Shown here: positions 1,396 through 33,974 of the stretch, in pieces
Numbering within the stretch: the first letter of the stretch is position 1
Layout: every line of letters begins with the position of its first letter
Origin: Siniperca chuatsi
Taxonomy: Eukaryota > Chordata > Actinopteri > Centrarchiformes > Sinipercidae
Reading direction: 5' to 3'
Length of the DNA stretch: 64,000 nt
Assembly (NCBI RefSeq): GCF_020085105.1
Contig: NC_058045.1
Span: 11,231,833-11,295,832, forward strand
Translations under genes and position numbers: made by a program
Notes under the pieces: generated by a model
The model's input: only the letters and a program-made list of their open reading frames with translations
Told to the model about the DNA's origin: nothing
Database searches by the model: none

Positions 1396-1476
1396 CCTCA
1401 TCCCCTTCTGCCCTAGTTCTGACATCAGCTTCCTGTATAGTTCCTGGTGGAGGAGCCATGTGGATGACTGAGTTAT
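1396..1476 (-). CDS. ccdc33: ccdc33-like exon, probably frameshifted
   Basis: The exon is bounded by an acceptor (atgcag) above 1476 and a good donor (gtgagt) below 1396. One reading frame encodes LLHQELYRKLMSELGQKGMR, which resembles the CCDC33 segment that follows the second C2 domain (remembered family sequence: ...PLKSRLYQKM...). The preceding exon (1636-1765) ends with one leftover base, so splicing enters a different frame (DNSVIHMAPPP...) that fits only the first residues. The switch between the two matching frames lies in the cctccacc run near 1437-1446. The 81-base length does not fit the flanking phases, whereas 80 or 83 would. This is either a 1-bp indel in a decaying gene or a sequencing error. 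Confidence 0.5.
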
Positions 1477-1635
1477 CTGCATACATCAACAAACATACAG
1501 ACAACACTGTAGAAACACTTGGCCCTTCTGGAAGGTTTCAGGGCACATTAAAAACTGTGCAAACATTCCTGATTTAGCAACAGTTTAGTTTCACATGTTC
1601 TCCCTGTAAATGTTTGACTTTAGTCCTCATGTTAC

Positions 1636-1765
1636 CAGTGGTTATGGAGTAGTACTCCCACATCAGAGCAGCAGCTCCAGTAAACATGGTAGCACAGTCT
1701 CGTTCCAGAAACCGAAAGGTGTGCTTCCACACAGGCTGCATCTCGAGGGAAACAACCTGGGAAAC
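1636..1765 (-). CDS. ccdc33: ccdc33-like exon, second C2 domain core
   Basis: The exon opens after a polypyrimidine-ctgcag acceptor and closes with a gtaaca donor. The translation includes PVWKHTFRFLERDCATMFTG and then an ALMWEYYS segment, the W-(N/K)-x-(S/T)-F-x-F strand and following strand typical of C2 domains. It matches the remembered CCDC33 region ...PLWNQSFLFQGRDGAT...LVLEYYSS... closely in length and order. It starts in phase 0 and ends with one leftover base. CCDC33 is a testis-enriched coiled-coil protein with C2 domains whose biochemical role is poorly known. This is the clearest identifier of the gene in the window. Confidence 0.7.
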
Positions 1766-2027
1766 CTGCAGCAAACACAGGGGAGGATCACAGCAACACA
1801 CAACAAAGGACTCAATGTGGCTTCAGGAAATTATCTGCATTCATCAAAAATTAAAACATACTCTGAATCCATCTGTAGTCGACTGTAAATCCATATTAAG
1901 CGCAGCTTGTCCCTGGGTTAATAATGAGTCTCTGGGTGGGAATGGGAGGACATGATGATCAACAGTTGGCACAGCGAGGCTGATCCCAGCAGGCAGTGCT
2001 GTTGTGGGGTGAGAGCGTGCACAGCAC

Positions 2028-2106
2028 CTGGCTGGTGCCCAGTGACGAGCTGGCAGATGGTATTGACGCTGGGGTGTGCATCCTCATATATTGAGTACAA
2101 CTATGC
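2028..2106 (-). CDS. Possible ccdc33-like exon (low confidence)
   Basis: The candidate follows a strong polypyrimidine tract and acceptor (tctctctctctctaag) and ends at a weaker donor (gtgctg). It is open in the only phase that joins a 2-base carry upstream to phase 0 of exon 1636-1765. The translation is Ser/Pro/Thr-rich, as expected for the linker before the second C2 half, but I cannot align it with confidence. The phase fit is the main argument; the weak donor is the main objection. Confidence 0.3.
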
Positions 2107-2199
2107 CTTAGAGAGAGAGAACGCAAAGAAAGCAGGCACCTGCAGGTGAGAAAAGGAAGTACTGCCAAACAGAGGAGGGGTCAGGCAAAGGAACTCCAA

Positions 2200-4600
2200 T
2201 GGAGTGGGCTGGAGAGGGGCTAGAAGGGTCACAATATGCCCCAGGCAGACAGATGTTTCAGCTCAGCTTATAAAGCAGGTCTGCATATTTTGCCCAACAA
2301 CTGAATAATTTATGTCTGCAATGTCTGCATCTTTCTGTAATCTCTAACCCTTTTGCAGTATTTTCTGGCTCCATCCTGCTATGTATAGGTGCGGCTCATA
2401 CACTCCAGACTGCTTTGGTGCATCTATATGTTCTGCCAGGCTGAGCACTGTTTAGAAACACACAGAGATTGCCAAGAGTGTCATTTACACACTGCCTGAT
2501 GAGTGCTTATCCATGGGGACCTTTAAGCTTAAAATGTCATTGGCTGAGGCTCCTCTGAGCGCACACAAAGGTCATCAGTGACACTGGCTCCAGAGCTCCT
2601 TATAGATTCCCAATCTACCACCATTATTCCTGGCAATTACAGACAGAACTGAAATTCTAATCATTGAAATACATTCAGTGTGAGGATGTATCTGGAATTG
2701 TAATGTAATGCCAATACATGTATAATTCAATCTAAGGTCAGTGATTCCTCTGTGTGTTGGTGAACAGCATTTTCCCACTGGTGCATCAACATGTGTTGCG
2801 ATTTAATCATAATATTAATACTTTTAATGCTAATATTAAACATCTACTGTCAAAATAGTTCTATTTGAGACACATTTTAAATGTAAAATGGTGATATACA
2901 AATATCACTTCACAAAAAGAGACATGACAGAGAAAGTGTTCCATCTGACCATCTGTATAATTGTGCTATTAAAGTATAGGTGATAGAAATAAACAGTCAG
3001 CATGTAGCTAAAATCATAATGGCTACAATTTTTTATTGTGCCTGTTATAAATATTTTTTTATATAATTTGTTACCTTCTGGAGCACTGGGAAGCACCTAA
3101 TTGAGCACACAGTAGTTCTGACAGCAAACAGAAGCTAAGCACAAGCATAGATGAAAGCAGCGGTAAACTGCCAACATTAATTGTAGTATAAATTTCTAAA
3201 TACTTTGATTCCACAATATAATTAAATGCATGTTGGCATCAAACTAGCTTTCCTCTAACAGTCAGACTTACAGTCTTACCATGCATATTTGTTATTAAGA
3301 ACTGAAGACATTTTCATATTTTAAACAGGCAAAAAACAAACAAACAAAAACAGAGCTATGTGGCTGTATAGAGAGGGTGAGTGTGTATGAAGTGGCCTGT
3401 TGCCTGCCTGAGCACAGATGGTGGCAGAGCAGGATGTACCGACCTGTACATTTGCCCACATGAGCGTGCACACATACACACACATACACACACATTCTCT
3501 CTCACACACACATACAGAATAATCAAATATGCATGGATGCATATGTAAATACTGCCCTCATACATACACACCCACACATAGGTGCTAAGAGCTCATTCTC
3601 TTGCACAGGAAGTGACTGCAGATAGACAGACTGGTCATTTAAGAAGGTGTCACACTTTTTTTTTTACAAAGATCAGGAGTCAAAACCCAACATACTTCTA
3701 ATTCTGTAATCAAAACAGTTTCTTTCCTTTTTTAACGGTAACACAAGACATCTAGACATGTCGATCAAAGGCTGACTGCGGTTCACAGAGACATCCAAGG
3801 CCAAGCAGGATAATTAGTGCACTGGAACGATCAATACTCCTTGCGTGGGGGTTGGATGCAGAGGAAAAAGCAATCTAAGGAACATTTGGAAGAGAACTGC
3901 CAGGGACAGCAAGATCCAAACATGCGGCATACATTACAAAGTGAGAGATTTACATCAGTGGGACAAGTACATACCGATTGCAGGATGTCCAGTTTTTTGG
4001 ATCCATATTAAAACCACTAATATTCATTATTTATATTCTAAACAGAGAGGTACACAACATATTGATTACTAACAAAAGCTATTGAGATATCCTCACTGCG
4101 CATACAGACAAGTGGTAAAGACTGGAGACAAATGGCAAGGCGTAAAGACAGGAAGACGGATAGATAGGTAGATGAATGAAGGCGAGGGTTCAGCCGATCG
4201 ATTGGCAGAGGAAGAGTGGAGGTCCCTCAGGGGGAGTGGGGCCTTTTTAGCACTGTATGAGGAGAGAAGGATGACATGTTTCCCTTTTGAGGTGCTGAGT
4301 ATGTGAGGGAGGTTTATGCCATCATGGCCAGGATGGAAAGATTCATGAGAGGAGAGTGTGTGGCCACGGCGCTCTGTGGCGTGACAGACGGTGATAGCGA
4401 GTGACAAACAGAGCTCTCTGAGAGAGGAGAGGAAGACATACTGGTTCTCCAGACTCCATCTCCCTGCCATGACTCTGGGATGTCAGCCATGCCCTGCCCA
4501 TCTCACTCAGTTACAGCCATCAAGAGAAACACAGAGCTTCTGATTTGATCTGGAGGCTTTTTGATACATCCTCCTGTCTTTTTTCTGGAAACCCAATTAA
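2200..4600. other. Intronic DNA with CA-rich tract
   Basis: No convincing exon. A degenerate CA/TACA-rich microsatellite lies at about 3468-3515. The long minus-strand open frame at 4093-4470 has no splice signals or recognisable domain and looks like chance. The rest is AT-rich intron-like DNA. Confidence 0.4.
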
Positions 4601-4630
4601 AATGGGACAAAGAGAACACGGCAAGCATAC

Positions 4631-4693
4631 CTGAAGTCAGCCCTGTGCAGTGAGGTGTGGAGGGTGGATGCAGGAGGGTGGAAAATCCTGCTG
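4631..4693 (-). CDS. Possible ccdc33-like exon (low confidence)
   Basis: A good donor (cttcag/gtatgc) and an acceptor (cacaag or cacaagcag) frame 63 bases that stay open when joined to the 2-base carry of exon 6279-6376, and they hand on the same 2-base phase. The product is a Pro/His/Ser-rich linker (HPPASTLHTSLHRADF) in the place where CCDC33 has a Pro/Ser-rich linker between C2 halves. Homology is too weak to be sure; phase and position are the evidence. Confidence 0.3.
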
Positions 4694-5439
4694 CTTGTGA
4701 GGTGGAAAGCATCATGACATCCTTTAAAATCAAATGACACATAAAAAACATTTTAATTATAATTTGTATTATTCTAACATTATTATAGTATTCATTATTA
4801 AGAATTATACTATCCAAAAATATTTGTAATACAATAAAATGTAACAAAGAAAATGTTTGGCTGTCACTATATGTATAATATGCCATTTACATTAAATTGA
4901 GTGATGGAAACATGGTTTCTGTGGAAATAGAGACTTGCTCCCCGATTTCCAGAATAATAAGAATTTGTAATGGTTACCCCCACTCAAAAAAAAGGCATAA
5001 ATGAAAACATGATTTGTGTCGACCGCCATCCCTGCTACAGATTAAGGTTCTGACACTCACCTAGAAAATCCATTTGAGCGAACAAAATAATACATTAACT
5101 TGCACCATTTGCACCTTGGCAACAGCTTTACTATTATTAGAAGACCGGTAGGTGCAGGAGAGACAGAGACGGAATAGCTCCAAGTGTGTCCAGACAGGGC
5201 AGACTCACACACATAACCCAGTCTGAAAAATATATTGTGATGTCAGAGGCTCGATACAGGACTCTACACTCACATGTCATTCACTATTATTATTATTATT
5301 AGACAATAGAAAAGTGAGATAAAACTGATTTATTAATATGAAATAATAATGAACATCTAGTACAAAATCTTGTAAAGGAAATCAATTAAAAGAAATCTCT
5401 TCCTTTTGAGATGACTCTGTGGGAAGGAAAGTATGACCC

Positions 5440-5917
5440 TTAAAGAAACAGTTCGACATTTAAGGAAATATGCTTATTTGCTTTCTTGCTGAGAGTAAGA
5501 CTGGGAGATTGATACCACTGTCATATCTGTACACTTAAAATGAATGCTACAGCTAGCATCCGGTTAACTTAGCTTAGCATAAAGACTGGAAACGGGGGAC
5601 TGACTGGTGACTGATCTCTGGGGAACAGCTAGCCTGGCTCTGTCCGAAGGTAACATTTAGCATTTAACTAAATCCACCTACCAGCACCTCTGAAGCTCAC
5701 TAGTTAATACATTATATCTCATTTGTTTATCCCTTATGAAAAACTAAAAACCGTAAAAGATGTGGTTTTACATGGTGTTATGTACCAGACTATTTCTAAG
5801 CAGCTAAATGGCTTCATATTTGATGTACAGACATGAGAGTTTATCAATCCTCTCATTAACTCTCGGTAAAAAAGAGAATACTAGTAAAATGTCAAAATGT
5901 CAAACTATTCCTTTTAA
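5440..5917. mobile_element. TTAA-flanked MITE
   Basis: The two ends are inverted copies: agaaacagttcgacattt follows TTAA on the left, and the complement of aaggaatagtttgacattt precedes TTAA on the right. The interior contains the stretch agcttagcataaagactgga and cacctaccagcacctctgaa, which I recognise as a repeat found widely in percomorph fish genes. It is about 470 bp with no coding capacity. TTAA at both ends fits a piggyBac-type insertion, although TTAA is common in AT-rich DNA. Confidence 0.7.
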
Positions 5918-6278
5918 AAGATGATGAAAAATGACCCAGAACTAAAACCGGACCTTGGTGACAAAATGTCACTTCAACAAAGGTCTAATCGGTAATGGCG
6001 GTTCCTTTCACCACATGAACACGCCCACATTTGCTACACACATTCAAGCTTTTTAGCCTGCAATGCACAGGACAGTTAGTCATTGTCTCTCTTAATTGAT
6101 GTCAGAGCCCTGAGGTGCATTAGTGTCTTACAGGATGTGCCCATGCTGGTGTGCATTTGCCCTCTCTGTAAGAAGCACCCAGGCTCGCCCACCAGCTGCA
6201 CAATACAGCCACAGCATATTGATTATACTGCTCATGGAGGCAGAATAAAAGCAAGGGGGATATTTTTTTCTGACTGAC

Positions 6279-6376
6279 CTGTTTGAGTGGTAGTTAGGGA
6301 CAATATCTGCCACAGTAAGCAGAAGAGCTACAGTTGAGGATTCTTCATTGAGCTTTTCCATAGCCTGCAAGAACGC
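6279..6376 (-). CDS. ccdc33: ccdc33-like exon, second C2 domain N-terminal strands
   Basis: The acceptor is tgcttttag and the donor ag/gtcagt. The translation (AFLQAMEKLNEESSTVALLL then TVADIVPNYHSNR) continues in phase from exon 6896-6967. It aligns with the remembered CCDC33 stretch ...EIFLQGVNEPLA...VVIARVVPNYKEFK..., including the conserved V-x-N-Y near the end. It ends with two leftover bases. Intact, with no frame break inside it. Confidence 0.65.
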
Positions 6377-6895
6377 CTAAAAGCAAGACTGATTTACTCA
6401 GCAGGAGAGAAAAGAGAGGGAGATAGAGAGCATGCACACCACAAATTCCTCACACTGTCCAATCTGCAAACATGGCACATCTCTACTGGTTACTTTAAGT
6501 TATGCAGTATCACATGCAGGCATTTAAACTCATGTTATTCAATACCACCTGGAATTGAGAAGATCAATAGAAAGATTCAGTTAATATCAAATTCTCACTT
6601 TGCTTAATTAAGTTAGCATCTTTTTCATCTCTCACAGAGCGCAGAGCACAGAGCTGTGAAAAAGTTTAATTGAGCTTGACTATCTTATCAGATGTTCCAG
6701 GATCTAATTAAAGCAAAATGATTTGTCAACATTATAATTGCTTGAATCCAGAGTCCGTAAACCCCTCCTTGCATCTCAATGGATATTCATCACCGCCAGA
6801 AGATTTAATCCATTTATCAGCTAAATAAAGGGAAATATGGGGATGACAATAAATATATAAACTAGCTCATGTTGGACAGGGAAAAGTGTGCTCAC

Positions 6896-6967
6896 CTCAA
6901 ACCCAGTGAAGGAGACATGAGGCTGCTGAGGAAGGAAACTGACTTCCCTGATCACAAGAGACCTCGG
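6896..6967 (-). CDS. ccdc33: ccdc33-like exon joining the two C2 regions
   Basis: Exactly 24 codons between a ttccag acceptor and a gtgagc donor, phase 0 at both ends. The product PRSLVIREVSFLPQQPHVSF plus TGFE joins directly to exon 6279-6376. It resembles the remembered CCDC33 sequence ...ATVVRKSSFIPRY...MALE, that is, the last strand of the first C2 region followed by the start of the next. The good splice sites, phase and sequence agree with each other. Confidence 0.6.
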
Positions 6968-8768
6968 CTGGAACAGAGTGGTGAAAGGAAGCAATAAAGC
7001 AGGAACAATGTGATAATTGGGCACAGCAATATTACTGCCACAGAGGGGCAGTAGTCCATTAAGCTATAATCCAATACTGTAGTATGAAATCTCCTCAACT
7101 GCAGCATTCACTGCATAATTCACCTGACAAGAAATAGTGTTGATGGTTGGTAGGGCTAGCATCTGTTGTTGGTGAATTAAAAAAACAACTAGAACCACAG
7201 AACTTCACAAACAGTGATTACGGCTCAGAGCTCTCAAGAGGGTCCTCCATTATCATCACTGCACAAATCAATGTTTATGACCATCATAAAAAAACTGCAA
7301 ACTAGAAAGCCCCCAAAGCCCGATTCATCCATAAAGTCTGTTCTTTACACACCGTATTCAGCCATCTTCAAGCTGATTTAACCTGAAACCAGTCCACTAG
7401 TCCTTCATCTCCCTGCTATAACCAACCCTGCAGTTTAGTCCAAAGAACCACTAACAATGAAGCACTGGTAATGTTGCCTACAGTGATACTGACAGATATT
7501 CACAGCTACTAAATACTTGATTGATGTGTAAAAGAAGTAAATATGGTAAGAAAAAATGAGTAATGTAAGCTGTTTTAGTTTGAAAATGAGGGGTTTAGTC
7601 ATACTTTTTTTGGTGCAAATTTTTGTCTCATACTGGTGGTGATCTCTTTAGTTTTGACATGCCATATATCCCAAAATCCTTTATTTTAACAGGTAATCTC
7701 AATGAGGTCTTGAGCTCAGTAAGACTAAATAAAGAATTAACTAACTAACAAAGTAATATAATAATAAACTTTAGTTATACAGCACTTTTCAAAATCAAAA
7801 GTGCGTCACATGGTTGAATCAGGGTTAAAATTTCAAACATTAAACATTTCAGGACTGAAGCAAATACAATTAGGCATTTAAAAATACTGCAATACAATGA
7901 AATAAAATGAAATAAAATAAAACCCCTAACTAATAATAAAACAGATATGATATATTGGCAATAAAACAAAGTACTAGAATTAATAAGAGGCTACATATCA
8001 GACAATGTACGCAGCATATCAGCTTTGTTTCTTTCTGTAATATACTTTTAAGGTCCTTTTAAGGTACAAAATGCATTCAATCTCCCAATTATTAATTTGT
8101 AGATAATGCCTAGATGTTATAAAATCATTATTGAGTTAAAAAAATGTTTAATACAAATACAGCAGTTGGATATTTGAAGAAAAGGCAACAGAGAATGTAA
8201 TGGGATACGCATAGTAAGACAGGAAAGGGTAAAGAAAGCATGGATTATTCATGTCTATTCCCACCATGCAAACAGCTCCTTTTTGATGGATTTTGCCTGG
8301 GGCACTCCTCCCTGCTCAATACCAACAGTCCCAGGCAGCCCAGCCTCATGCTGCTCCACGTAGCCAGGATGATGAGCTCCCCCAGAATCACAGACAGGGC
8401 CAGCGGCTCTCATCTCCCCTCTATAGTCAGACATAATGATGGTGTGTGGTCTGAGGTGAACCTAAATTTAAACTAGAGTATCAGGAGGAGGGTAGTAGAG
8501 CAGAGAGGTAGAAGGGGACAAGTGCTGACGGTGATTGACTGAGCTTATTTTAGTTTTAACTGAAGGAGGGGAAGTAACATGGATTTAGTGTAAGGGTCTG
8601 TCATACCAATCAAATGAAAGGTGGAGGTGCAGAGAGGTGGTGAAAGAAAAAAACATTGTCACCTTCAGTACAATACAGTAACATATACTGAACATATTTC
8701 TCTGCACCAGTTTGTTATCCGGAAAGAGACTTTGGAGTGTGTGTCTTTGTGTGGATGCGTGAGCTCAC

Positions 8769-8865
8769 CTGGACTGGCTCCAAATGGTAGCGGTGGATAG
8801 GCTGCAGGGGTGTTAACGCAGGAAGGTGGTGATGCCCTGACTGTCAGCCACGATAAGTACCATCA
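8769..8865 (-). pseudogene. ccdc33: ccdc33-like exon with a single-base frame break
   Basis: The exon lies between an acceptor (tctatctgcag) and a good donor (ccag/gtgagc). Its first half reads MVLIVADSQGITTFLR in one frame, which then hits TAA at about 8813. Its second half, in the neighbouring frame, reads LTPLQPIHRYHLEPVQ and splices in phase to exon 6896-6967. Both halves match consecutive parts of the first C2 region of CCDC33 as I remember it (...VILKVVDN... then ...FHPYHFELVKP). The exon is 97 bases, where 98 (or 95) would keep the phase. No 16-bp intron could explain this, so it is a deletion in this copy or a sequence error. The flanking genes show no such errors. Confidence 0.55.
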
Positions 8866-8929
8866 CTGCAGATAGATAGACAGAATATTTTATTCATGGC
8901 TAATTCTGATTTGTGGCATATTTTGTGTT

Positions 8930-9050
8930 ATGTTGTTTGTCTGTAACTCATTGTTTTTGCTGCCTATATTGGCAGGACACTCTTAAAAAAGTGATTTATA
9001 AGCTAAATGAAGCTTTTATTGGTTAAATAAAGGTTAATAAAAAAAAGAGA
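8930..9050 (+). repeat. LINE-like 3' tail ending in an A-rich run
   Basis: The stretch ttgtttgtctgtaactcatt... ttggcaggacactcttaaaa... ttggttaaataaaggttaat followed by an A-run resembles the degenerate 3' end (ttggccagg...aataaaggttaaataaa) common to a teleost retroposon family. Only the tail is present. The family assignment is from memory and is not certain. Confidence 0.4.
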
Positions 9051-10951
9051 ACATGGATACAACACAAATTAATCTGCAGTAGGATGTCTAATACATTAGA
9101 CATAATTAATTAAATTTTTTAATGCGATACAAGTAAAGAAAATAAAGAAGGAGAAATAAAAAAACAACAACAACAATCCCATTAGTTCCTAGAACTACAG
9201 CAAGTCAGAGACTAAAACTATAGAATTGAACACATACAGTATCTAAGTGAAGACATGTAGAGATAACTGGGTTGAAAGGAAGCTCCTCTTCCTCCTGCAT
9301 TCAATGATGTGCTCAGTCTGCAGCACTGAAATAGCTTTCCCTCTACATGAGCTCTGAACTGAGGGTGAACCTGAGCTTTTTTCCACCTCTATTTAAAAAG
9401 AGGCCTATCTGCAGACAGCAGGAGTCTTTGCCAAATTTCTCTTGGCAGAGGATTTAAAAGACGTGCAACATAAAGAAATCCAACACGATGCAGGTCAAAT
9501 CTCAATAAATGTTGCCTGAAGCCATCAACACCCCAGATAGCAAGTGATTGTGTAGACTGTCCACTGAAACTGAGTAATCCTGAGATTTCACACTTTCAAC
9601 ACATTCCATATCATCTCCTAGCATTCAGCAGGTGAAGATGGACAGCAAATGAACCCCTCTAATGGTCAACTAACCATTCAAAACACCTTAGCAACAGTTA
9701 GAATCCTTCATGCTGCAGGACCGATCATCCACCCGCGACTTGCTGTCCTCCAATGAGCTCGCTTCGCCGCAAAGGGGAGGAGGCAGCAGTAGGCAAATAA
9801 AGCAGGGAGGAGGACAAAGGGAGGAGGATTCAGAAACATTGCATTGCCTCTGTTGGGCCATCAGTATTCCCTCCACATCCACTGCTATCGCTCCACACAC
9901 TCATTGAAAGCCCCATTTAGCTTTCTGTGTAATTATTCTGTCACACACAGGCAGACACCATGCTCCATGAATGAGCAGACCCTTGCTCGACAATTATCAT
10001 CAACACCGAAGTCTTTTCCTGGACTGGTAAACAGATCAAGCCAAAGCTATTACACACAAATACACATTTTGCTGCCAATATTTCCTATAAACCACAGAGG
10101 GAAATATGCTGCATTAACATTCAGAGAGTGGCCAGTGAAGTGCAAGAGTTTCTCAGAAGCATAAGCCCAATTTTTCACCTCCAAATGAATGTTCTTCCTC
10201 AGTGACAGAGAGACTTCAGAGACACATTTCAATACATTTTTCTTCTCTTGATGTTGGAAGTTCAGTCAGTACTTGAAAGGTTAGCTGTATTGGTGAATGC
10301 AGTGATGGAATTTTAAGAAGTAACTTACATTTCCTAAATACTCTGAAGACAAATTTGCATCATCACCCCTTGACAGTGTGGGTGAGAATGAAAAATAACC
10401 CCACAAAAATACATCTAAAGCGTTAGAGGCATTAAATTCATACGTGAGCATGGGCTAGCATAATGTGCATTAACTGGCCAAAGCTCTACAGACAGCTTCA
10501 TAATTTTACGATTGAGTCCCTGCACACCAGCCATGATCTCAATCAACTGCGATATCACGTATCAGTTATAGATTCAGTCATACCTTTTCTCTATTTCGAC
10601 ATGTTTGTCCTGTGCTGGTAACTCCTTTTAGAGTACAGCATTAACAACATGCTAACAATGCTACGCTCCAGAGCTCTGCATTTAGAACAGTTTTATGCAT
10701 CTTTGACCATAATTACTGAAAGACCACTCCTCCCTGTTTCTTCTCTACCACATTCAATTACAGGATTGAAAGACCAATCTATTCTTAAATTCTTAGAGTA
10801 GGATTGCCTGAAACTGTTCATGGGTTTTAGCATGTCACATACTAATTCAAATTCAAAGAGGATTTGCTAAAAATCATTCTAATGAAATGAGCCACAGCAA
10901 GTTAGTTAAACTTGACCAAGACAGATCATGATCTGAATCTGAAGCCGAGCC
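9051..10951. other. Intronic DNA of the ccdc33-like gene, no confident exon
   Basis: By comparison with CCDC33, an exon encoding the middle strands of the first C2 region should lie between 8865 and 15744. I could not find it here on the minus strand. The purine/pyrimidine-biased block at 9700-9910 is open on both strands but has no convincing splice sites. Another open minus-strand stretch at 10050-10232 lacks splice support. Confidence 0.4.
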
Positions 10952-10956
10952 CACAC

Positions 10957-11760
10957 TGTTGTACGTATGATCTTCGAACCCACAAATGGAGAACACATCT
11001 ATAGTCTTTATAACCCAAGTCACACTTTATTTATATGTTAACAGGAATAGTGGGAAGGGGTGTAGTTGTTCAGAGCGAAGCCTTCGGTGTCGAACTTGGT
11101 AACCCCAGGAGAGCAGCAGTGGTTCCGACTCTGAGCCTTGATCAGCGGTCACCCCGCTGACTGGGTCTAGCCGCCACGTAGGTCTGGACAGGCAGGCTGG
11201 TCCATGAAGCAGAGTCAGGTGGTACCACGTGGATCTGGCTGGCCATGGTATAGCGCTGATTGTGGTGTGTTAGCAGAACCAAGATCACGGAGGAGGTAAG
11301 ATGTTGGGGTTCTGGCTCTGAGGTGGAGTGGAGGTAGACAGGCAAAGTGGAACTGTTGAAGACAGGTGAGGTGAAGGTGGCTGGAGAGGCAGGCAGACAG
11401 GAATCCAGGCAACGACAGGAGCTGTGATCACCAGCACAGGATAATCCTTCAGGCAGAGCAGAACACAGGATCAAACACGAGGCAAAAACCCCACTTGCAA
11501 AAAGGGTACTTAGCTGAGTAAGTTTTGAAAAGCCTTGACATAGTGGTTGTACAATGTACGGGGACGATCTGGCGTCGGTGTAGTGGAAGAGCCTGGCATA
11601 TAAGCTGTGGAGACTGATGAGTTATAGGAGACAGGTGTGCCAGTGATCAGCAGCAGGCGGGGATTCATGGAGCCAGACCAGTAGACATAACACAGGGAAA
11701 GAGGAGCACCCAAAAAGACACACAGGGATGGGAGGATAGGTGGCTGACTACAATAGTACA
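10957..11760 (-). repeat. 3' LTR of the Ty3/gypsy element
   Basis: This aligns along its length with 14848-15682, for example the shared gatcttcgaacccacaa near one end and ggataggtggctgactacaa near the other. It is about 30 bp shorter because the 5' LTR has an extra CA-rich insert near 15570-15615. The two copies differ at many single positions, so the insertion is not recent. Confidence 0.9.
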
Positions 11761-12076
11761 ACCCCCCCACCATCTTTGGGTCGAGGATGCGGGAGTGCGG
11801 AACCCAGGACCGCTCCTCCGGACCATATCCCTCCCAGTCCACCAGGTATTGGTACCCATGTCCACGTCGGCGCACGTCCATGAGTCGCCTGACGGAGTAG
11901 GCAGGATGGTCATCAATGACCCAGGCAGGTGGAGGGGAGTCGGAAGGCAGGCACAGAGTGCTCCACGAGACTGGTTTAAGCTGTGAGACGTGGAATGTGG
12001 GGTGAACTCTCATGGAGCTGGGTAACTTGAGTTTGATGGCATGGTTTAATGATGCGGTCAATGATAAATGGACCAA
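11510..12076 (-). pseudogene. Retrotransposon pol C-terminus with chromodomain
   Basis: The frame contains a chromodomain-type segment ([19 protein letters not shown], about 11790-11850), with the conserved Y-x-V-x-W-x-G-Y and W residues. This is preceded by the S-x-L-K-P-V link that follows integrase in chromoviruses. Chromodomains target integration to marked chromatin. The frame is offset from the integrase frame upstream, so the polyprotein is broken. Confidence 0.85.
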
Positions 12077-13052
12077 TGTAGCGGGGAGACAGTTTCTTGG
12101 ATTTGGTTCTTAACGGAACATTTTTTGAAGATAAGCAAACCCTCTGACCTGATTTGTAAGTGGGTGCTGGTATCCAGTGTCGGTCAGCAATTTGCATGTT
12201 CCTCTCGGTTGATTGAAGAGCTGCTTGGGTCTCTTTCCAGATCTTCCGGCAACGGCAAAGGTGGTGCTGTACGGATGGAACTGCAAGATCACTTTCCTGG
12301 GATGGGAACAGGGGTGGTTGGTATCCTAGCGAGGACTCAAACAGAGAGAGACCAGTAGTTGTGCAGGTCAGGGAATTGTGTGCATATTCCACCCAGGGAA
12401 GTTGGGAACTCCAAGAAGATGGATTGTGGCAGCTACACTGTGAAGGGCTGCTTCAAGGTCCTGGTAAGCCCTCTCCATCTGACTGCAGGTGGAAGCTGAT
12501 GGTTGCTCCCAGAGCTTGGCCAAAAGCTCTCCAAACCTGTGATATGAACTGAGGGCCTCGGTCCGAGACAATATCCATTGCTATACCGTGAAGTCGGAAC
12601 AATTGGTGGGTTAGGAGGTCAGCCATCTCCAGAATTGAAGGGAGTTTCGGTAATGCCATGAAGTGAACCGCCTTGGAGAACTGGTCTACTGTGGTGAGTA
12701 TGGTAGTGTGACCTTGCGAAGGCGGCAGTCCGGTGACAAAGTCTAGGGCAATGTGGGACCATGGGGGACTGGGAACCGGGAGTGGCTGTAGCAGGCCAGC
12801 TGGTGGTCGATGAGAAGACTTCCCTCGTGCACAGATGGTACAGGTAGCCACAAAGGCCCGAGTGTCGGCTTCCATGGTGGCCCACCAAAAATGCCGTCGG
12901 AGGAGGGAGAGAGTTCGGGTGACTCCAGGGTGACAGGAAAAGTGGGAGTTGTGGACCCACTGAAGCACTTGGGAGCGAGTGGCGTCGGGCACAAACAAGC
13001 AGTTAGGAGGGCCGTTGCCTGGGTCTGGTTGATCCTTCTGGTCCTCCCTCAT
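11976..13052 (-). pseudogene. Retrotransposon integrase region, frameshifted
   Basis: On the minus strand from 13052 the frame shows an integrase zinc-binding H...C-x2-C segment and the start of the catalytic core (ALDFVTG..., later VSDRGPQF). The frame is lost near 12460. The C-terminal half ([10 protein letters not shown] and the ...GPFIIDRII... GPY/F-like part) continues in other frames at 12392-11976. Two of the three acidic catalytic positions are visible; the frameshifts make it non-functional. Confidence 0.8.
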
Positions 13053-13117
13053 AACACTTTCGATCTCCCAGGGTGGCCACTACACATGTGGAAGGCAGAA
13101 TAGTGTCTGATCCGGTT

Positions 13118-13573
13118 TCAGGTTCCAGGGCAAGATCCTGACGAGATAGGCCGGTAGGTGAGTGTGAACTTGAAGCATCCAAAAAACAATGCCCATCGTG
13201 CTTGACGAGAATTGAGCCTTTTAGCGGATTGAATATATTCAAAATTTTTGTGATCTGTCCACACAATGAATGGTTGTTCTGCTCCTTCCAACCAGTGGTG
13301 CCACTCCTCCAAAGCCATCTTCCCCGCCAATAACTCCCGTTTGCCCACATCATAGTTACATTCAGCGAGAGTGAGGTGTCGGGAGAAGAAGGCACAGGGA
13401 TGTTTCTGGTCGTGTTGGAGTACTGGGAGAGTACAGACTCCCACGTCCGATGCATCAACCTCCACCGTGAATTGGCGTGCAGGATCAGGTTGGATCAGGA
13501 TTGGAGCGGAGACGAACAGGGCCTTAAGTTTTTCCAAGGTGGCCTCTGCTTCGGCGTTCCAGGCAAAGGGCAC
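13118..13573 (-). pseudogene. Retrotransposon RNase H region
   Basis: The translation contains the Ty3-type RNase H signature [13 protein letters not shown]... (first catalytic Asp) followed by [12 protein letters not shown] and [13 protein letters not shown]. It is joined downstream, in another frame, to the integrase. It belongs to the element 10957-15682. Confidence 0.85.
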
Positions 13574-14130
13574 CTTGGCGGAGGTGAGCTTGGTGAGTGG
13601 GGCCGCAACACGGCTGTAATCGCGGATGAACCTCCAGTAGAAGTTTGCGAATCCCAGGAAGCATTGTAATTGCTTATGATTGGTGGGTGTGGGCCACTCC
13701 GAGACTGCCTTAACCTTGGCCCTTGGCCGGGTCCATCCTCATCTGACCACTTTCCAGGATGTATCCCAAGAAGCTTACTGAGTTCACGTAAAATTCGCAC
13801 TTCAGCTTTAACGAAGAGGTGGTTCTCTAGGAGTCGTTGCAAGACCTGACGGACGTGACTGATGTGACTAGCTGGGTCTTGGGAGAAGATGAGGATGTCA
13901 TCGAGGTAGACAAACACAAAACGTTTTAGGAAGTCACGGAGGACATCATTCACCAGGGCTTGGAACACCGCCGGTGCATTGGTGAGCCCAAATGGCATGA
14001 CCAGGTACAAAGTGACCCAGGGGTGTGTTGAAGGCGGTCTTCCATTCATCCCCCTCACGAATCCGAACCAGGTGATAGGCGTTGCGTAGGTCCAGTTTAG
14101 TGAAGATTGTGGCCCCGTGGAGGGGTTCAA
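13495..14130 (-). pseudogene. Retrotransposon reverse transcriptase region, broken
   Basis: The frame holds RT motifs [13 protein letters not shown] and the catalytic [11 protein letters not shown] (YLDD encoded at 13897-13908). After about 13830 it drifts out of frame relative to the RNase H part. RT copies the element RNA into DNA in Ty3/gypsy elements; here frameshifts interrupt it. Confidence 0.88.
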
Positions 14131-14199
14131 AAGCTGAGTTGATGAGAGGCAGGGGGTACTTGTTTTTTATGGTGATCTGGTTGAGCCCTCTATAATCAA

Positions 14200-14847
14200 T
14201 GCAGGGTCACAGTGTCTTGTCTTTCTTGGCTACAAAGAAAAACCCTGCTCCTACAGCGGCAATCGTGGGGTTCCCCCGCCGTGGCCCTGGAGGAGACGTA
14301 GAGCTGAAGGCAGGGCAGGAGACCGATGGAGGCGCTCTTGGCGTCTTTCGCGAAGGCAATTGTCTATCCCGATACAAAGGGTAATTAAGGAGTCCAAGGC
14401 CACGGGTTCATTGCGGGAAGCCAACTCGTCCTTGGTGGGTTTGCTTAGACCACTTCTGAAGGCGCTAACCAGGGCCTGCTTGTTCCACAGGTGTCCGGGT
14501 GGTTGAAGACCGTCGTGAGTCTCTCCAGGAAGTCCGCTAGGGAGAAGGATGAGAGAGGTCTGCTAGCGTGCGTCGTCTCGGCCCAAGCTAAAGCTCTCCC
14601 CCGTAGTCTGGCAGAAGACCAAGGAGCACTGAAGCAATAAACTCCGGCAGCCATTCACTTCTCTGGAGAAGAGGTTTAGGTCCGATGTGTAGGAGTCCCG
14701 GAGTGGCTGAGCTGACAGTGACGGCGTGAGTGCTGGCGGTGAGGACGTCGTCGGGGCCAGAGTCGAGAGCTGGGTGGTGAGTCAGGAAACCTGCTGGGTT
14801 AGTTGTGTGATTTTGGAAACCATGGGTTCATGTTGGCCAGATCGTTC
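14200..14847 (-). pseudogene. Retrotransposon gag remnant and leader
   Basis: Between the RT region and the 5' LTR there are only about 650 bp. These hold short, stop-interrupted gag-like pieces (ALAWAETT..., FSLADFLERLTTVFNHP) on the minus strand. A normal gag plus protease would be longer, so this part is deleted or badly degraded. I could not identify a clear primer-binding site next to the LTR. Confidence 0.55.
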
Positions 14848-15682
14848 TGTCGTATGTACGATCTTCGAACCCACAATCGCAGAACACAACTATAGTCTTT
14901 ATAATCCAAGTCACATTTTATACATTAACAGGAATAGTGGGAAGGGGTGTAGTTGTCCAGAGCGAAGCCTTCGGCGTCGAACTTGGTAACCCCGGGAGAT
15001 TAGCAGTGGTTCCGACTCGGAGCCTGGAGCAGCGGTCACCCTGCTGACTGGGTCTAACCGCGCATGGGTCTGGACAGACAGGCTGGTCCGTGAAGCAGGT
15101 TGAGGTGGTACCACGTGGATCTGGCTGGCCGTGGTGTAGTGCTGATTGTGGTGTGTGGAGACTGACCGTCAGTGGAACCAAGATGACGGAAGAGGTAAGA
15201 TGTTGGGGTTCTGGCTCCGAGGTGGAGTGGTGGTAGACAGGCAAAGTGGAACTGTTGAAGACAGGCGAGGTGAAGGTGGCAGGCAGACAGGAATCCAGGC
15301 AACGACAGGAGCTGTGATCACCAGCACAGGATAATCCTTCAGGCAGAGCAGAACACAGGATCAAACATGAAGCAAAAAACACACTTGCAAAAAAAGGTAC
15401 TTAGATGAGTAAGTTTTGAAGAGCCTTGACATAGTGGTTGTACAGTGTATGGGGACAATCTGGCATCGGTGTAATGGAAGATATAGCATATAAACTGTGG
15501 AGACTGATGAGTTGATAGGAGACAGGTGTGCTCAGCAGCAGGGATTCATGGAGCCAGACCAGTAGACATACACACACACATACACATATTCAAAGATGAA
15601 CCGTGGACACAAGAAACACAAGGAAAGAGGAGCACCCAAACAGACACACAGGGATGGGGAGGATAGGTGGCTGACTACAACA
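14848..15682 (-). repeat. 5' LTR of the Ty3/gypsy element
   Basis: Partner of 10957-11760, with the same TGT...ACA ends. It has an additional CA-rich insert (about 15570-15615). The LTR ends only about 60 bp from a real exon of the ccdc33-like gene (15744-15877). Confidence 0.9.
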
Positions 15683-15743
15683 CACACAACATCACACAAT
15701 AACCTTATCCTGTTTGGTGGAGTTGTAATCTTTGGCTGCTCAC

Positions 15744-15877
15744 CCTCCCTGTAGGGCTGCAGCTCCTGGAGCTCAATGGAGAGTCTCTCCTCCCGGGAGG
15801 GGCTGTGTGTGGGCTGGTGGGTGCAACACGTCACCTCCTGACTCCTCCACCCACAGGACTCATCCACTCCACTCTGC
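15744..15877 (-). CDS. ccdc33: ccdc33-like exon, start of first C2 region
   Basis: Acceptor gcatttgcag and donor ggag/gtgagc, 134 bases, entering with one base of a split codon and leaving with one. The translation ends HSPSREERLSIELQELQPYR, then EG. It fits the remembered CCDC33 stretch ...[25 protein letters not shown], the linker plus first strand and loop of a C2 fold. No frame break. The right LTR of the retrotransposon begins about 60 bp downstream of its donor. Confidence 0.6.
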
Positions 15878-17715: not shown

Positions 17716-20349
17716 TATGACAGAGCTATAGAAAAAGCACTAAACACTAAAAAAAAAGATGACTGCAAAACAAATTGCAACTTGCAATTTATGAATCTAT
17801 TCGTGTTTGTTGTTGTGGCAGCCATTATTTGAGGCATGCAGTATTCATAATTTTTGCTCTGTCATTATCTTTTTGATTGCTGTTGGGATATTTGCCGCTC
17901 TGCTGGCAGATCTTTTCAGCTAAACATTGACTTTGTTTACAGCTCTTTGTTCATCTATTGTAAACAAAGGACTTTTGTTGTTTCTCATTTCAAGTGCCCT
18001 TCCCCCGTCTACCTTTTGTCTCTGAAAGCCCTGGTTTGTTGTTAGAAGCCTTCAATTGGAGCCTGGCTGGCCTGCCCCCTCTACTGCCTCAAAGCTGGTT
18101 GCAGATGAAAAATTTATGACTGTATGCCTTGAAAACCTCACATTCCATTTGAAGTGCTTCTGTTCCTCTGATGCTGCCCCCACTGATGGCGACTGCGTCT
18201 GCCGCCTTCATTCGACCAGCGCTTTTCCTCACAGTGGGAGTGCAAATCAGGGAGCGAGGGTGGGACGGTGTCTATGGCTTTACACTCCTTCACTGGTATT
18301 CACTAATGAAGGACATCTTTTTTTTGGCTGTGTGCAATAATAAGACATTGATTAGCTGCTTTTAAAAGCCACTGACTGTAAACTGTAAAATAGCCCCCAC
18401 ACAGTTCTCTCTTAGTGCAGCATAATGTCTGTATAGTCTATTTCTATGTCTCATTTATCGAGGATTAACCTCCTTTGCCACATGATCAGTTAAATGTGCT
18501 CATTGGGAGTAAAGTGCCAGCATATCCAGGACCTTCTTTGGGATATATTGGCATTTTACTAAAGTTCCTTCTATTTTACACTCAATAATACATTATTTCA
18601 AAGGCCAATCATTGTAGAATGGCTATTTTAACATGAATAACAACATTTTTTTTCTGCATTTCCTGCAGAAGCCTGACCATTAATAATGGCAGGATTTGTA
18701 CTACAGACTCACTCTGCTTAGTTAAATCTTTATTTTTAATTAAAAAAACCCATAAGAAAATAAAGATTATTTATTTCAAGTTTTGTTTGTTTCTATTCAA
18801 AAAGTATCTTGTGGAAAAAGTGGCATTTTGTGCAGTTTCCAAAAGAAACATCATAAATACATATAAAAAGAAGAAGAAAGTAAAAACACGACCAACTTAA
18901 ACATTGCAAGACCCATTAATAATTTTATGATAATATTCACACATTTTTAAAATTTAAAACTTTAGCTGAAGCTTTGCAAAACTGCTGAAAAACAAAAGTG
19001 AACTCATAGGATGAGGAGCAACATCACGGGACTTGTTCTTTGGACAAGATGTTGTCAGACAGATGTTGTTTATGTTGTTCAGTATTGGGATTGTGTGATC
19101 TTCAAATATGTGTATTGTGTAACATTTCAGATACGATATTCATACTATTTCAAATAGATGTGAACCATGTCTTTTATTCAGCGGGGGATGATTTAATCAC
19201 CATAGTGACAATAATAACCCCTGTTCCAGGGCCAAACATGTGGGCATTGTTTCCCAACGCCTCTCCATCTCTCAGTAACCTGAAACTGATGTTTTTACAC
19301 ATCCCTTTGGACGATTGTGAAATGTGCAAATAGCGGATACAATAAAAACAATTTGCTAAGGAGTAAATGAATAACACCATATACGCTGATTATCATTCAC
19401 AACCATGTTCATATTATCAAGAGATTTATCCTCTCTTGACAGTGCACAGTTTCAACATTTACAAAATCTTTTCAATACTAAAAAAAAAAAAAAAGAACTC
19501 CTGAGCAGGATGAGAAGAAGATAAAATGGTTATTTTGCTTTTAAATTTGAGGCACATAGTAACATATACAGTATAGAGAAAATATAAGTAATTTAGATTT
19601 GACTTAACACAAGAAGAATAGAAGAATTCTTGTGTTCATAGACCTTGGCAAAGCCTGCTCTCATGCATAAAGTCACACTGGTTTCTAGGCAACAAGTAAT
19701 TTCACAACACATACTGCTGTAAGTGCAGCAGCAGCTTTTCATAGCGGGGTTTCATACCAATCTAAAGTCACATCAGATGGCAACCTTGAGCCACTCAGTA
19801 CTGTTCAAACCTCTGTTCAAAGCTGGGGGGTGATGCCACACTTGTCACTGGAATAATTAGTTCAGGACAATGAAGCACAATGAAGCAGCATTCATCTTCA
19901 GAAGCAAGGTCCTCTCCAGCACTACATGAATCAACATTCCCCTGCATAACCTACGGTTTCCAGGCACAGGCTCCAATTATTGACTTTAAACGGTTATGAT
20001 GAAAACCGACCCATCACAAGGTGGATTCCAGAAAGATCCCCATCAGCTTTTAGAGTTATCAAAAAAAGAGTTATCAGGCAAAACCTCATGCTCACGTTTG
20101 AATGATTCAGCAAGACTGTGTGTTAATATCATACTGCGTGGGGAGACAATTGAAAGTGAGTTGGATGTGATGTCAAAGTGACGTTAAGTTAAAAAAAATC
20201 ACTTTGCATGAATTTCACAATGATGTTTTCACTGTAATAAAGCTTTGACAGTAAACTGGAGACACTGTGATGAAACTGAGTCAAACATTATTGTTCAATA
20301 CATGCATTAATTACCAACAGGAACCAGCCATTAAATTTGGAATTATGTT

Positions 20350-27240: not shown

Positions 27241-28128
27241 GAAAGCTAGTTAGCCTAGCTCGCTAGCTTCCAACTTTCTGAGCGGAATCAAATACTTCAC
27301 AACACACCGGGACCTCCCAAAAGTTTACTGTTGTAAAGGGCTAGCTGTCTTAAAAACCTCTAACAACACAACTGACAATATGTGAGCTTGTTGACTGTCT
27401 TGTATCAATGTTTGTAGGTTATGTTATATATATACAATATATATCAGTCAACTGCTGTCATGGAAACATACGCCCAAAGACTTGAAGCTAAGATGCTGTT
27501 ACAAATATGTCCACAAACAGTTTTATCCTCTTCTGAAAAATGAAAGTGCAATAGCTGCAGGATCATCGTAGTTTTTATTTCCTTACACAAAAAGTGAGGA
27601 GAATTAAAATGTCCCTTCAACTTTAAACTACAGCACACAGTTGTGATTTTTGTGTGTAATTTTACAGTTAACTGTGTAAACCAATCAACATTTTTTGTCA
27701 TATTATTCCACCTTAACCAGACTGTATACAACAATGTCAACAATACATATGGGCTCATTATTTAGCTACGGCTATGTGCCCAAGTATAAATTATTAATTA
27801 ACTGTATATATAATGTAAATCCAAGCTTTTTTAGCCAAGATAAATGTAAGGCACATTGGTGTATGGCAGGGGATGTGTGGGAATATGCTTACACTGAAAT
27901 TTACAGTTGGCCAACCCAATTCAACTTCATTACAGCTGTCAACAGAGATAAGCAGTTCTTTCATGTCCGCTCAAATGTACATGTTTTTCCACCTCGAACA
28001 CACGCAAATCCAATTACGTGCTAATTGAGTGTTACAAGGCTCATTGATTATGACAGAGGCAGTGCAGCAGACTGAGCCGGAGAAAAATATCCCCAGTAAT
28101 TACGCGCCCCCCCCAACACACACCAACC

Positions 28129-28155
28129 CACACACACACACACACACACACACAC
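28129..28155. repeat. Short (CA)n microsatellite
   Basis: About 13 CA units next to a C-run (cgcgcccccccc at 28101-28112). Confidence 0.9.
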
Positions 28156-29291
28156 CCAGGAGGCCTTCAGGAGGCATGATTTAATATTGAGGCAATATTT
28201 CTCAACTGTCAATTTGAATTGACTTTGCCAACAATGATACAATTTGATTTGTTTTTATTCATCTGAGGAATCTTAAATCAAAACTAGACTGGGTTGAAAT
28301 ATATCCAAATTATTGTGTTAACTCCAATTCAGTGACTAAATAAATTTGAATTAAAATAATGCCTATTACAGAATCTAATGCATTCTCTGTATAAGGACAG
28401 CTGAGATAGCAGAATTCTAACTCGCTTGCATGTTTTTCAAAAGAAAAGCTGGAGTCAGCTAGTTAATAATTATGACGGTGTGCTTTTCCTCGTGGTCAGT
28501 GTTCAAGTTTAACAAAACAGACAGAATTACTGGTAAACAGCAGTCAGAGGAGGGCTTTTGTTGACTTGCTTTTATGGAAAGGTTGTGCCTGTCTGTTGTG
28601 TGGAGGAAGTCTGGACTCTTAGGATGCATAAAAATCACACTTGAGATTTCCACTTCACTGTCAGTGGCAGGAAGCTAAGAGAAGAATAACAAACAGTGCC
28701 TGAATTCAAACTAATGGCCATGTATTTGGTAGCTGTGTGAGCCCTGAAGGTAAAATCCTACAATACAAATTATGTTGTTCCTATGAACATGAACAGGCTC
28801 TATAAAAGGCCAAAATCTAATTTCTGAGGCCAGTAAAGACAATCTCTGTCTCTGCACTACTGTCATGAGTCAGTGGCAGTGCAGTGAAAGACGGTGGAGT
28901 CTGTGAAGGACGTCTTTGTGCACACAATCCTATCCTGATGATGCCAAAACCATGAGAAGCTAATTTTAGTAGTGACATTTTCTTTAGTTGTATGTGGGGC
29001 TGGATTTGAGGGGATTGTCTGCTGCTTGGTTCAGAAAACAAAAGAGAAATTAGATACATGTATGTCTCCAGTATTGTTGTAACCCCAGAATTGTACTTGG
29101 AAAGAGGCTAACTCATCTCACTGAGCGCTCTCCACCACAAAAAAGAAGTTAATGATGTTATTCACAAAAGGTCTGACTTCATGAACACAATGAACACAAG
29201 CTGCCCTCAGTGCATCAACAGAAAGTCGCAGCGAGGCCATAATGTGATGTTGTTGATAGAAATAATCTCCCTGACCAACAGAATCCCTCAC

Positions 29292-30749
29292 CAGCTTTGA
29301 CATCAGCCTCTTGATCTGAGCCTCTCACAAGCAGAGCCTCTGCGTTCAGGTGAACACCATCAAATTAATCCTGAAATAACACAAATTGAAACGCCACTGT
29401 ACACTGTATGCTGACTTTAGATTAAAGACAAGTAAAGACAAATTAGTTTCTTTTTGTGAAGGCGTAAACCTTACCAATGCTGGTATGCACAATGGTATTC
29501 AGTGCATCCAGAAGTCTCCGTCACCAGGTTGCACAGTGAGTACTAGAAATCCTTGTTAGTTGATCTTCACAGTCAGCACCTCATCCTCCTTCCCTTCCAC
29601 CTTGATGGGACTCCCCTGCATTGTGACTGCTGTAAAATCGGAAATATGCGTCAGAATATACAGGAACTGTTTGTTATGTTAATGCATCTTTGGCAGGAAC
29701 AATCCCCTCTTTGGCCAGAAATGTTAACAGAGCAAAAAACCCAGCAGGTTGTCACAAAGGTCATACACAAGCACAAACTTATACCTTGGGTTATAAGCTG
29801 TTTGGCCTAAAATATTAGATTTCATCCAAAAAGGCCCACCCAAATGACAAAGGCTTTAGCCTAGGCTTGTTTGCTTGTAATTTCAATAATGAATAGACTG
29901 CAAAATGTCAGAATACTCACTCTTGACTTGACCACATTAGTCACCTCTATATGTTTCACAACAACTTTTCCTTAGTTTGCATGCAACAGCACTTTTATGA
30001 TGTTCTCACCACAAGATAGAGTCAGGTCAAAGTCCAGACCGACCAGACACTACATGTGAGGTGTCCAGGAAAAAAGAAAAGTTGAGATTGTTGTCTGGTT
30101 TGTGCAATTACTGAACTTCTCCAAGGTGGGTGTGTGGTGGAAAGTGTCATTTAAAATTCTCCAAACCACGAGACAGACAGCACAAGATTTACACAAGGTA
30201 AGGTCTTACATTCAAACTACAGAGCATGTTATAGGCTGCAGTATGTTCATATTTGTCAAATATGTTCAGGTAATGCACAACATGGAGTGTAATTAAAATG
30301 TATACATTTCTGGCCATTGACAAAACGAGCTGTTGGTGCCAGCAGTCCTGTTTTGACATCCATCGACCTTCCACACCTTCCTGGCACTGCAGCACGCGTG
30401 CAGACAGCCGGTAAGTAGCCTTGGATCTCAAAGTGTATAAAACTGATTAGCCAGTGTTGCTGAGATTAAGTACAATCACAATAAAACAATCTTCTCTTGC
30501 GAAACTTGCCAGTCAGTGACAAAAGTTGAGAAACGTGCATGGTCATTTGCATAAAATACACATTTAATTCCTCATGTAAATGGCATAGTCTAGTACATGT
30601 GAAACAAAGAGGCACAGGTGATTAAGTTACCTGTTGCGGCTCTCAGGCTCAAAGTCCCTTTGTTGTTAGAAGATCAAGCTCAACTTCAAAGGCATGAAAT
30701 TTGTCCATGATGTCTTTGTGAAACCGAATCCAAAGGCAGGCATGCTCAT
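29292..30749 (-). CDS. Cluster of exon-like blocks, possible ccdc33 5' part
   Basis: Four minus-strand blocks have good acceptors and/or donors and protein-like translation. 30631-30749: cccacag acceptor and caacag/gtaact donor, with a frame containing MDKFHAFEVELDLLTTKG and then a stop. 30010-30049: CLVGLDFDLTLSC, donor gtgaga. 29556-29629: VTMQGSPIKVEGKEDEVLTV then KIN and stop. 29292-29339: LLVRGSDQEADVKA, donor ctg/gtgagg. They look like beta-strands of a C2 domain, as expected at the N-terminus of CCDC33. However, two contain in-frame stops and the phases do not all join. Either this is the damaged 5' end of the gene or some blocks are coincidental. Confidence 0.3.
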
Positions 30750-33700: not shown

Positions 33701-33974
33701 CAGCCAGGACCTGTCACATTACTCTCAGCTCCACAGTGGGACGAGGGCACCTGAATACAGGCTGTGAGGGAGGGTAACAGAATGTGAGTGGAACTAGACC
33801 AAACAGGCAAACAAGGACGCCTTTGCAGTAGCAACAGAGTCTGACTTGGGACTTTGTAGACACTTTTTCCTCTTGAATCAAGGGGAACGCAGCTGTGTGT
33901 CACTAGAGATTGTGGATAAAAGTACTCCAGCTCCTCTGTAAGACTTTGGATCTGTTTGAAAAAGAGACAGCACA
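30750..33974. promoter_or_regulatory. Divergent intergenic region upstream of stra6
   Basis: This region lies between the presumed 5' end of the minus-strand ccdc33-like gene and the stra6 start codon. It should hold the stra6 promoter and any 5' non-coding exon, but I see no clear TATA box or initiator and no CpG island. A 185-codon antisense open frame at 33472-34029 overlaps stra6 exon 1; it has no domain or splice support. (AT)n occurs near 31593-31608. Confidence 0.4.

Follow-up and report, generated by a model that had tools for sequence, protein, structure and literature searches.

A 64,000-nucleotide stretch of the Siniperca chuatsi genome (C4:11231833-11295832, hereafter the window) holds exons of ccdc33 that can be followed only by switching frame, which raises the question of whether this gene is being lost or has taken another form. 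A preliminary description of the window had proposed the recent or ongoing loss of a testis-type C2/coiled-coil gene. Based on searches of the genome (718.8 Mb, 65 contigs) and on comparisons with fish CCDC33 proteins, a different answer is favored here: judged from sequence, it is quite probable that ccdc33 lost its C2-domain half and kept its coiled-coil half in the line leading to Siniperca, a percomorph (Centrarchiformes), and apparently in percomorphs generally. The decay of the C2 half is probably old and clade-wide, with a coiled-coil-only CCDC33 being kept.

An intact half and a decayed half

The exons of the preliminary description, used as a query, matched CCDC33 of Centroberyx gerrardi (P0001, 1128 aa) with E 1e-45, only four of the 727 candidates having E <= 1; the same query also matched proteins of Osmerus mordax (780 aa), Anoplopoma fimbria (451 aa) and Cyclopterus lumpus (425 aa). 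The joined exon pieces gave a single PDB match at E 0.48 and no Pfam match. P0001 was taken as the reference for the locus and its structure was predicted from a 28-sequence alignment, the mean pLDDT of 63 permitting a reading at the domain level only. The predicted protein is rich in strands at residues 13-175, 319-442 and 453-655, becomes disordered at ~661 and shows long helices starting at 822, and a Foldseek search with this model produced 31 matches with E <= 0.001, including the C2A-C2B pair of extended synaptotagmins, ferlins and single C2 domains. Pfam finds one C2 domain in P0001 (321-412), the other two C2-like regions being read from the low-confidence model. The ancestral architecture of CCDC33 is thus predicted as tandem C2-like regions followed by disorder and a coiled coil.

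Siniperca chuatsi record P0167 (“coiled-coil domain-containing protein 33 isoform X2”) can be followed exon by exon along the locus, and all eight matches (E <= 0.001) of a short-form Anoplopoma query in the Siniperca genome fell at the ccdc33 locus on C4, within 34 kb. The coiled-coil half was localized 14-18 kb beyond the window edge:

C4:11213445-11217951, left of the window: ten coiled-coil exons with GT-AG introns and no stop
C4:11219055-11219105: start exon MKTSKKTKSLSSPVAIK, upstream of the coiled-coil exons

Together they make 11 exons with 10 GT-AG introns and an open frame of 1227 nt, encoding 408 aa which, across that whole length, show 83.3% identity with Sander lucioperca P0129. 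The coiled-coil exons are homologous to the C-terminus of CCDC33 and are, exon by exon, 67-85% identical to Centroberyx. A unitary pseudogene has no intact product; here the 408-aa coiled-coil frame is open, and the proposed loss of the gene is not supported.

The preliminary description had suggested aligning the ccdc33 protein of a related fish to the locus. In a tblastn search of 65 kb of the locus, P0001 gave colinear minus-strand matches across the C2 half, with frame breaks. Residues 1-744 were represented by 11 colinear matches of at least 28 bits, nine in the window and two to its left; by comparison, the plus strand, the reversed protein and 30 shuffles gave none (best shuffle 26.2 bits). 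The relics, with the corresponding Centroberyx residues, are the following (window positions):

29154..29500, minus strand: relics of the N-terminal C2-like domain, residues ~68-183, in several frames and with an in-frame stop
29500-29432, 29356-29282 and 29279-29154, minus strand: its pieces, three colinear matches to several CCDC33s, singly weak (23-33 bits)
19201..19272, minus strand: possible relic, residues 302-325, weak (30 bits, 50% identity), colinear
15744..15877, minus strand: relic exon of the second C2 domain, residues 347-387, open; E 1.6e-9, 70%; W374 is R
8769..8865, minus strand: relic exon for residues 388-424 with a net change of -13 nt and a broken frame; reading on meets a stop
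6896..6967, minus strand: relic exon, residues ~436-458, open; tblastn match of 439-458 at 6955-6896
6278..6372, minus strand: relic exon of the third C2-like region, residues 458-485; tblastn match at 6367-6278
4628..4702, minus strand: possible relic, residues 506-526, weak (28 bits), stop inside
1637..1768, minus strand: relic exon, residues 525-568, open in Siniperca; E 3e-15, 80%
1396..1476, minus strand: relic exon for residues 569-606 with a net change of -32 nt; its shifted frame is common to records of four percomorph genera
from -4324 and from -6327, minus strand, left of the window: residues 666-695 and 701-745, respectively; tblastn matches

Within these exons the matched spans were residues 137-183 (29279-29154), 347-383 (15876-15766), 404-424 (8834-8769) and 588-609 (1452-1387), and the N-terminal scrap at 29500-29432 carries a stop. 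Residues ~302-346 (5' of 15877) and most of the N-terminal C2-like domain are poorly preserved, and W374, replaced by R in Siniperca exon 15744-15877, is invariant among the positions of the 28-sequence alignment. The C2 domains of CCDC33 are present in Siniperca as relics only, with stops, net losses of 13 and 32 nt and the W374 to R change, which supports the decay of the C2 region put forward in the preliminary description. As a separate observation, IRVEWGCRELLG starts the piece resembling residues 701-745 (C4:11225371-11225505, window -6327 to -6461), which also matches Cheilinus P0199 and may be an acanthomorph-specific exon, with just 3 positions having an outgroup consensus.

Frame breaks, the gypsy element and the age of the decay

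The need for a frame switch in two exons was confirmed. Exon 8769-8865 yields VMVLIVADSQ and HHHLPALTPLQPIHRYHLEPVQ in two different frames and, assuming the same splice junctions, measures 97 nt against the 110 nt implied by Centroberyx (net -13); the Cebidichthys P0123 record has the 3' part of this exon in the same frame. For exon 1396-1476 the two readings are NSVIHM and LLHQELYRKLMSELGQKGMR, again in different frames, and under the same assumption its length is 81 nt against 113 nt (net -32). The shifted frame of the latter (MAPPPGTIQEADVRTRAEGDEG) was used as a query against the N-termini of the short-form CCDC33s (119 records given, 100 with a usable N-terminus; E-values refer to that set of 100) and matched Sebastes P0125 (2e-10), Anoplopoma P0003 (5e-9), the apogonid Sphaeramia P0165 (9e-9) and Perca P0124 (2e-5). 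Past the junction, Siniperca, Sebastes, Anoplopoma and Sphaeramia have similar peptides of the pattern M-A/T-P-x-P-G-x-x-Q-E-A. Since the shifted frame recurs in four genera, an error or a recent origin is unlikely; the shared reading, known from annotated proteins, would be in keeping with fixed lesions.

Scophthalmus P0222 reads VIHMVPPQEPHRKL, with a junction like that of Siniperca exon 1396-1476, and by inference would carry the same deletion with one base fewer, restoring the frame. Myripristis, a holocentrid outside the percomorphs, keeps PLGFSAL, the piece deleted from this exon in Siniperca. The small exon EKLPLR, found 3' of exon 1396-1476 in other percomorphs, was looked for in Siniperca and not found. 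Exon 1637-1768, open in Siniperca, is frame-switched in the Toxotes P0194 and Scophthalmus P0222 records, and exon 15744-15877 recurs in records of Anoplopoma, Perca and Brachionichthys and partly in Acanthopagrus. Considering the shared junction of exon 1396-1476 together with the separate frame switches of Toxotes and Scophthalmus in exon 1637-1768, one lesion looks ancestral and the others lineage-specific.

The intron between the relic exons 15744-15877 and 8769-8865 is occupied by a degraded retrotransposon, as had been described:

10956..15680, minus strand: Ty3/gypsy-like element with long terminal repeats (LTRs) at 10956-11753 and 14847-15680

Two of its frames match RT_RNaseH and integrase models. 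A middle exon of the first C2 region was thought to be missing here; by hand, exon 15744-15877 leaves one base, G, and exon 8769-8865 supplies TG, restoring V388 of Centroberyx, so that the two join in phase and nothing is missing across this intron. The LTRs differ at 58 of 773 aligned bases and by 86 gap columns, an identity of 83% once gaps are included. A rough calculation by hand gives ~0.1-0.18 substitutions per base for the relics on the Siniperca line versus ~0.04 per LTR copy, the relics being about two to four times more diverged than one LTR. Based on the smaller divergence of the LTRs, the element is probably a later passenger. The same figures, with the shifted reading in four other percomorph genera, are at odds with a recent or ongoing process.

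CCDC33 forms across fishes

The distribution of CCDC33 forms was examined with a short-form search admitting ~248-789 aa (best 120 of 320 rows) and a long-form search admitting ~620-1974 aa (best 120 of 146 rows), in which many rows are isoforms or predictions, so that rows do not equal species; percomorph status was assigned by species name and fish classification, three species being looked up. Percomorphs made up 85 of the 120 short-form rows, all of 287-531 aa, the remaining 35 including one (P0195) without organism name, whereas by name none of the 120 long-form rows was from a percomorph. Long teleost forms among the rows listed came from eels, milkfish, characiforms, one catfish, one smelt and Centroberyx. 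Carp, salmonid and herring records include many coiled-coil forms of ~370-410 aa, and no carp or salmonid long form was among the 120 listed; independent C2 losses in carps, salmonids and herrings are possible.

The start exon is clade-specific among the rows listed, MKASKKTK and close variants being present in 42 of the 85 percomorph rows and in none of the 35 others. An older short start exon, MKRYYRPHTST, is known from herring-type fishes, with relatives in salmonids; it can be read in Siniperca only with a TAG inside and is retained inside the Sparus P0175 and Betta P0207 records. It would seem from this older exon that the C2 half was lost when a short product was already in place, which made the loss tolerable.

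A relative-rate test was based on nine relic segments, the ancestral residue being the consensus of ten outgroup fishes (70% agreement); the weak 302-325 match, the N-terminal scraps and 506-526 were left out. In the relic segments 52 changes fell to Siniperca vs 17 to Centroberyx (157 sites with a defined state), while in the coiled-coil exons the numbers were 39 vs 35 (216 sites), a contrast with Fisher p = 0.0056 (0.0072 with 302-325 included). Leaving out one segment at a time gave p from 0.001 to 0.014, save for segment 137-183. The test agrees with decay of the C2 half but depends on that one segment.

Competing explanations and the tip of motile cilia

Several observations weigh against a single, old and clade-wide loss. 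Segment 137-183 (16 changes to 2) drives the rate test, which without it gives 36 to 15 and p = 0.063, and two of the best-kept relic exons show no acceleration (347-383, 4 to 5; 588-607, 1 to 2). Open frames persist in relic exons 15766-15876, 6955-6896 and 1637-1768, which share 70-80% identity with Centroberyx, a conservation that exceeds the expectation for very long unconstrained decay; some of these may still act as 5' exons, or their decay may have set in later than that of others. Records of Perca, Anoplopoma, Sander and Dicentrarchus indeed splice pieces of relic exons into the N-terminus. In the Dicentrarchus and Sander records translation begins within the 3' part of exon 1396-1476, at an ATG read in the ancestral frame, Toxotes and Scophthalmus also read this part in that frame, and W374 is kept in Perca. 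The other species are known from annotated proteins alone, and annotation tends to choose whichever frame is open. Clustering at 90% identity and partial listings could conceal a percomorph long form, and in a profile search the percomorph start exon resembled the short-form starts of other teleosts no better than shuffles did.

One alternative is that percomorphs lost the C2 half repeatedly, once the long form had been under weak constraint for a long time, the shared shifted reading being a coincidence or an annotation effect. The different lesions of exon 1637-1768 in Toxotes and Scophthalmus, the tryptophan kept in Perca and replaced by R in Siniperca and Anoplopoma, and the well conserved relic exons without acceleration are in its favor; however, the similarity of the post-junction peptide in Siniperca, Sebastes, Anoplopoma and Sphaeramia makes it unlikely. 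A recent or ongoing loss of the whole gene in Siniperca is far less plausible, since the coiled-coil half is intact, the shifted frame occurs in records of four other genera, LTR divergence is, by the rough arithmetic, below that of the decaying exons and percomorph records are short among the rows listed, even though the frame breaks at 8769-8865 and 1396-1476 and the several neighbouring exons still open would suit it. Assembly or base-calling errors in an intact gene are scarcely credible: both breaks are single-exon indels in an assembled genome, but net changes of -13 and -32 nt are not base-calling slips, one break is common to records of other species, and the ten neighbouring coiled-coil exons and islr2 are clean.

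With the loss of the C2 half and retention of the coiled coil as the preferred explanation, the following course of events is proposed. A deletion that shifted the frame of exon 1396-1476 would have ended the long reading frame. It would date to an ancestor shared by Eupercaria and Gobiaria at the least, and by flatfishes too if the Scophthalmus record holds the same deletion. The gene would have survived because the coiled-coil part was already being produced from transcripts that began 3' of the C2 exons. The chances appear evenly balanced that the percomorph clade swapped the C2-bearing CCDC33 for a coiled-coil-only form through a new first exon, so that the motile cilia and sperm flagella of thousands of species would work without the membrane-binding half; in some lineages the frame-shifted relic exon would even have become a new N-terminus (M-A-P-P-P-G-A...).

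A recent study of multiciliated cells from frog, mouse and human assigned CCDC33 to the distal tip of motile cilia: together with CCDC78 it occupies the very end of 9+2 cilia, bundles microtubules and influences ciliary length, and the C2 domains are suggested to contribute to caps by which microtubules are joined to the membrane at the tip; a C2D1-type ciliary tip protein of Tetrahymena was considered a likely CCDC33 orthologue (PMC11870508). The label “testis-type” is therefore too narrow. By sequence the Siniperca gene is the same, but its C2-like regions are decayed and its start exon is different; likewise, the Tetrahymena protein shares the ancestral C2 and coiled-coil architecture, whereas the percomorph form is without the C2 part. 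What remains is a short CCDC33 that is predicted to bundle microtubules still and to work at the tips of motile cilia or sperm flagella, but without the C2 domains that may link the tip cap to the membrane. If the clade dropped the C2 domains yet kept the microtubule part, it would offer a natural experiment on the need for the tip-membrane link. No paper on ccdc33 in fishes was found in the literature searched; the one ccdc33 passage of PMC13108966 does no more than cite the multiciliated-cell work.

The percomorph situation resembles isoform-restricted pseudogenisation in its intact downstream product and relic upstream exons, but apparently spans a large clade with a clade-specific first exon. 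The term denotes genes whose long form is disabled by decay of its exons and whose short product persists; a search for papers combining four of five relevant terms found none.

Among minor observations, the domain DUF4472, which we take to belong to CCDC78, the partner of CCDC33 (a paper search found no support for this), has two matches at C20:14761409-14762091 of the genome, one with a TAG inside the matched stretch. A third broken ccdc33 exon had been proposed at 30631-30749, 5' of the matched N-terminal exons. It was dropped as a ccdc33 exon because no match to CCDC33 (best 40 rows of the first 330 residues of CCDC33s > 800 aa against 28000-34000), Pfam or PDB was found; DEHACLWIRFHKDIMDKFHAFEVELDLLTTKG is an open-looking piece there on the minus strand, between ccdc33 and stra6. 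The good quality claimed for the neighbouring sequence was borne out by the ten open coiled-coil exons, an open 717-aa frame in the window (islr2, a name taken from the preliminary description) and the three plus-strand frames at 41131-47593 that match the STRA6 family (PF14752). These frames place the ccdc33 locus beside stra6, as is presumably also the case for human CCDC33 and STRA6.

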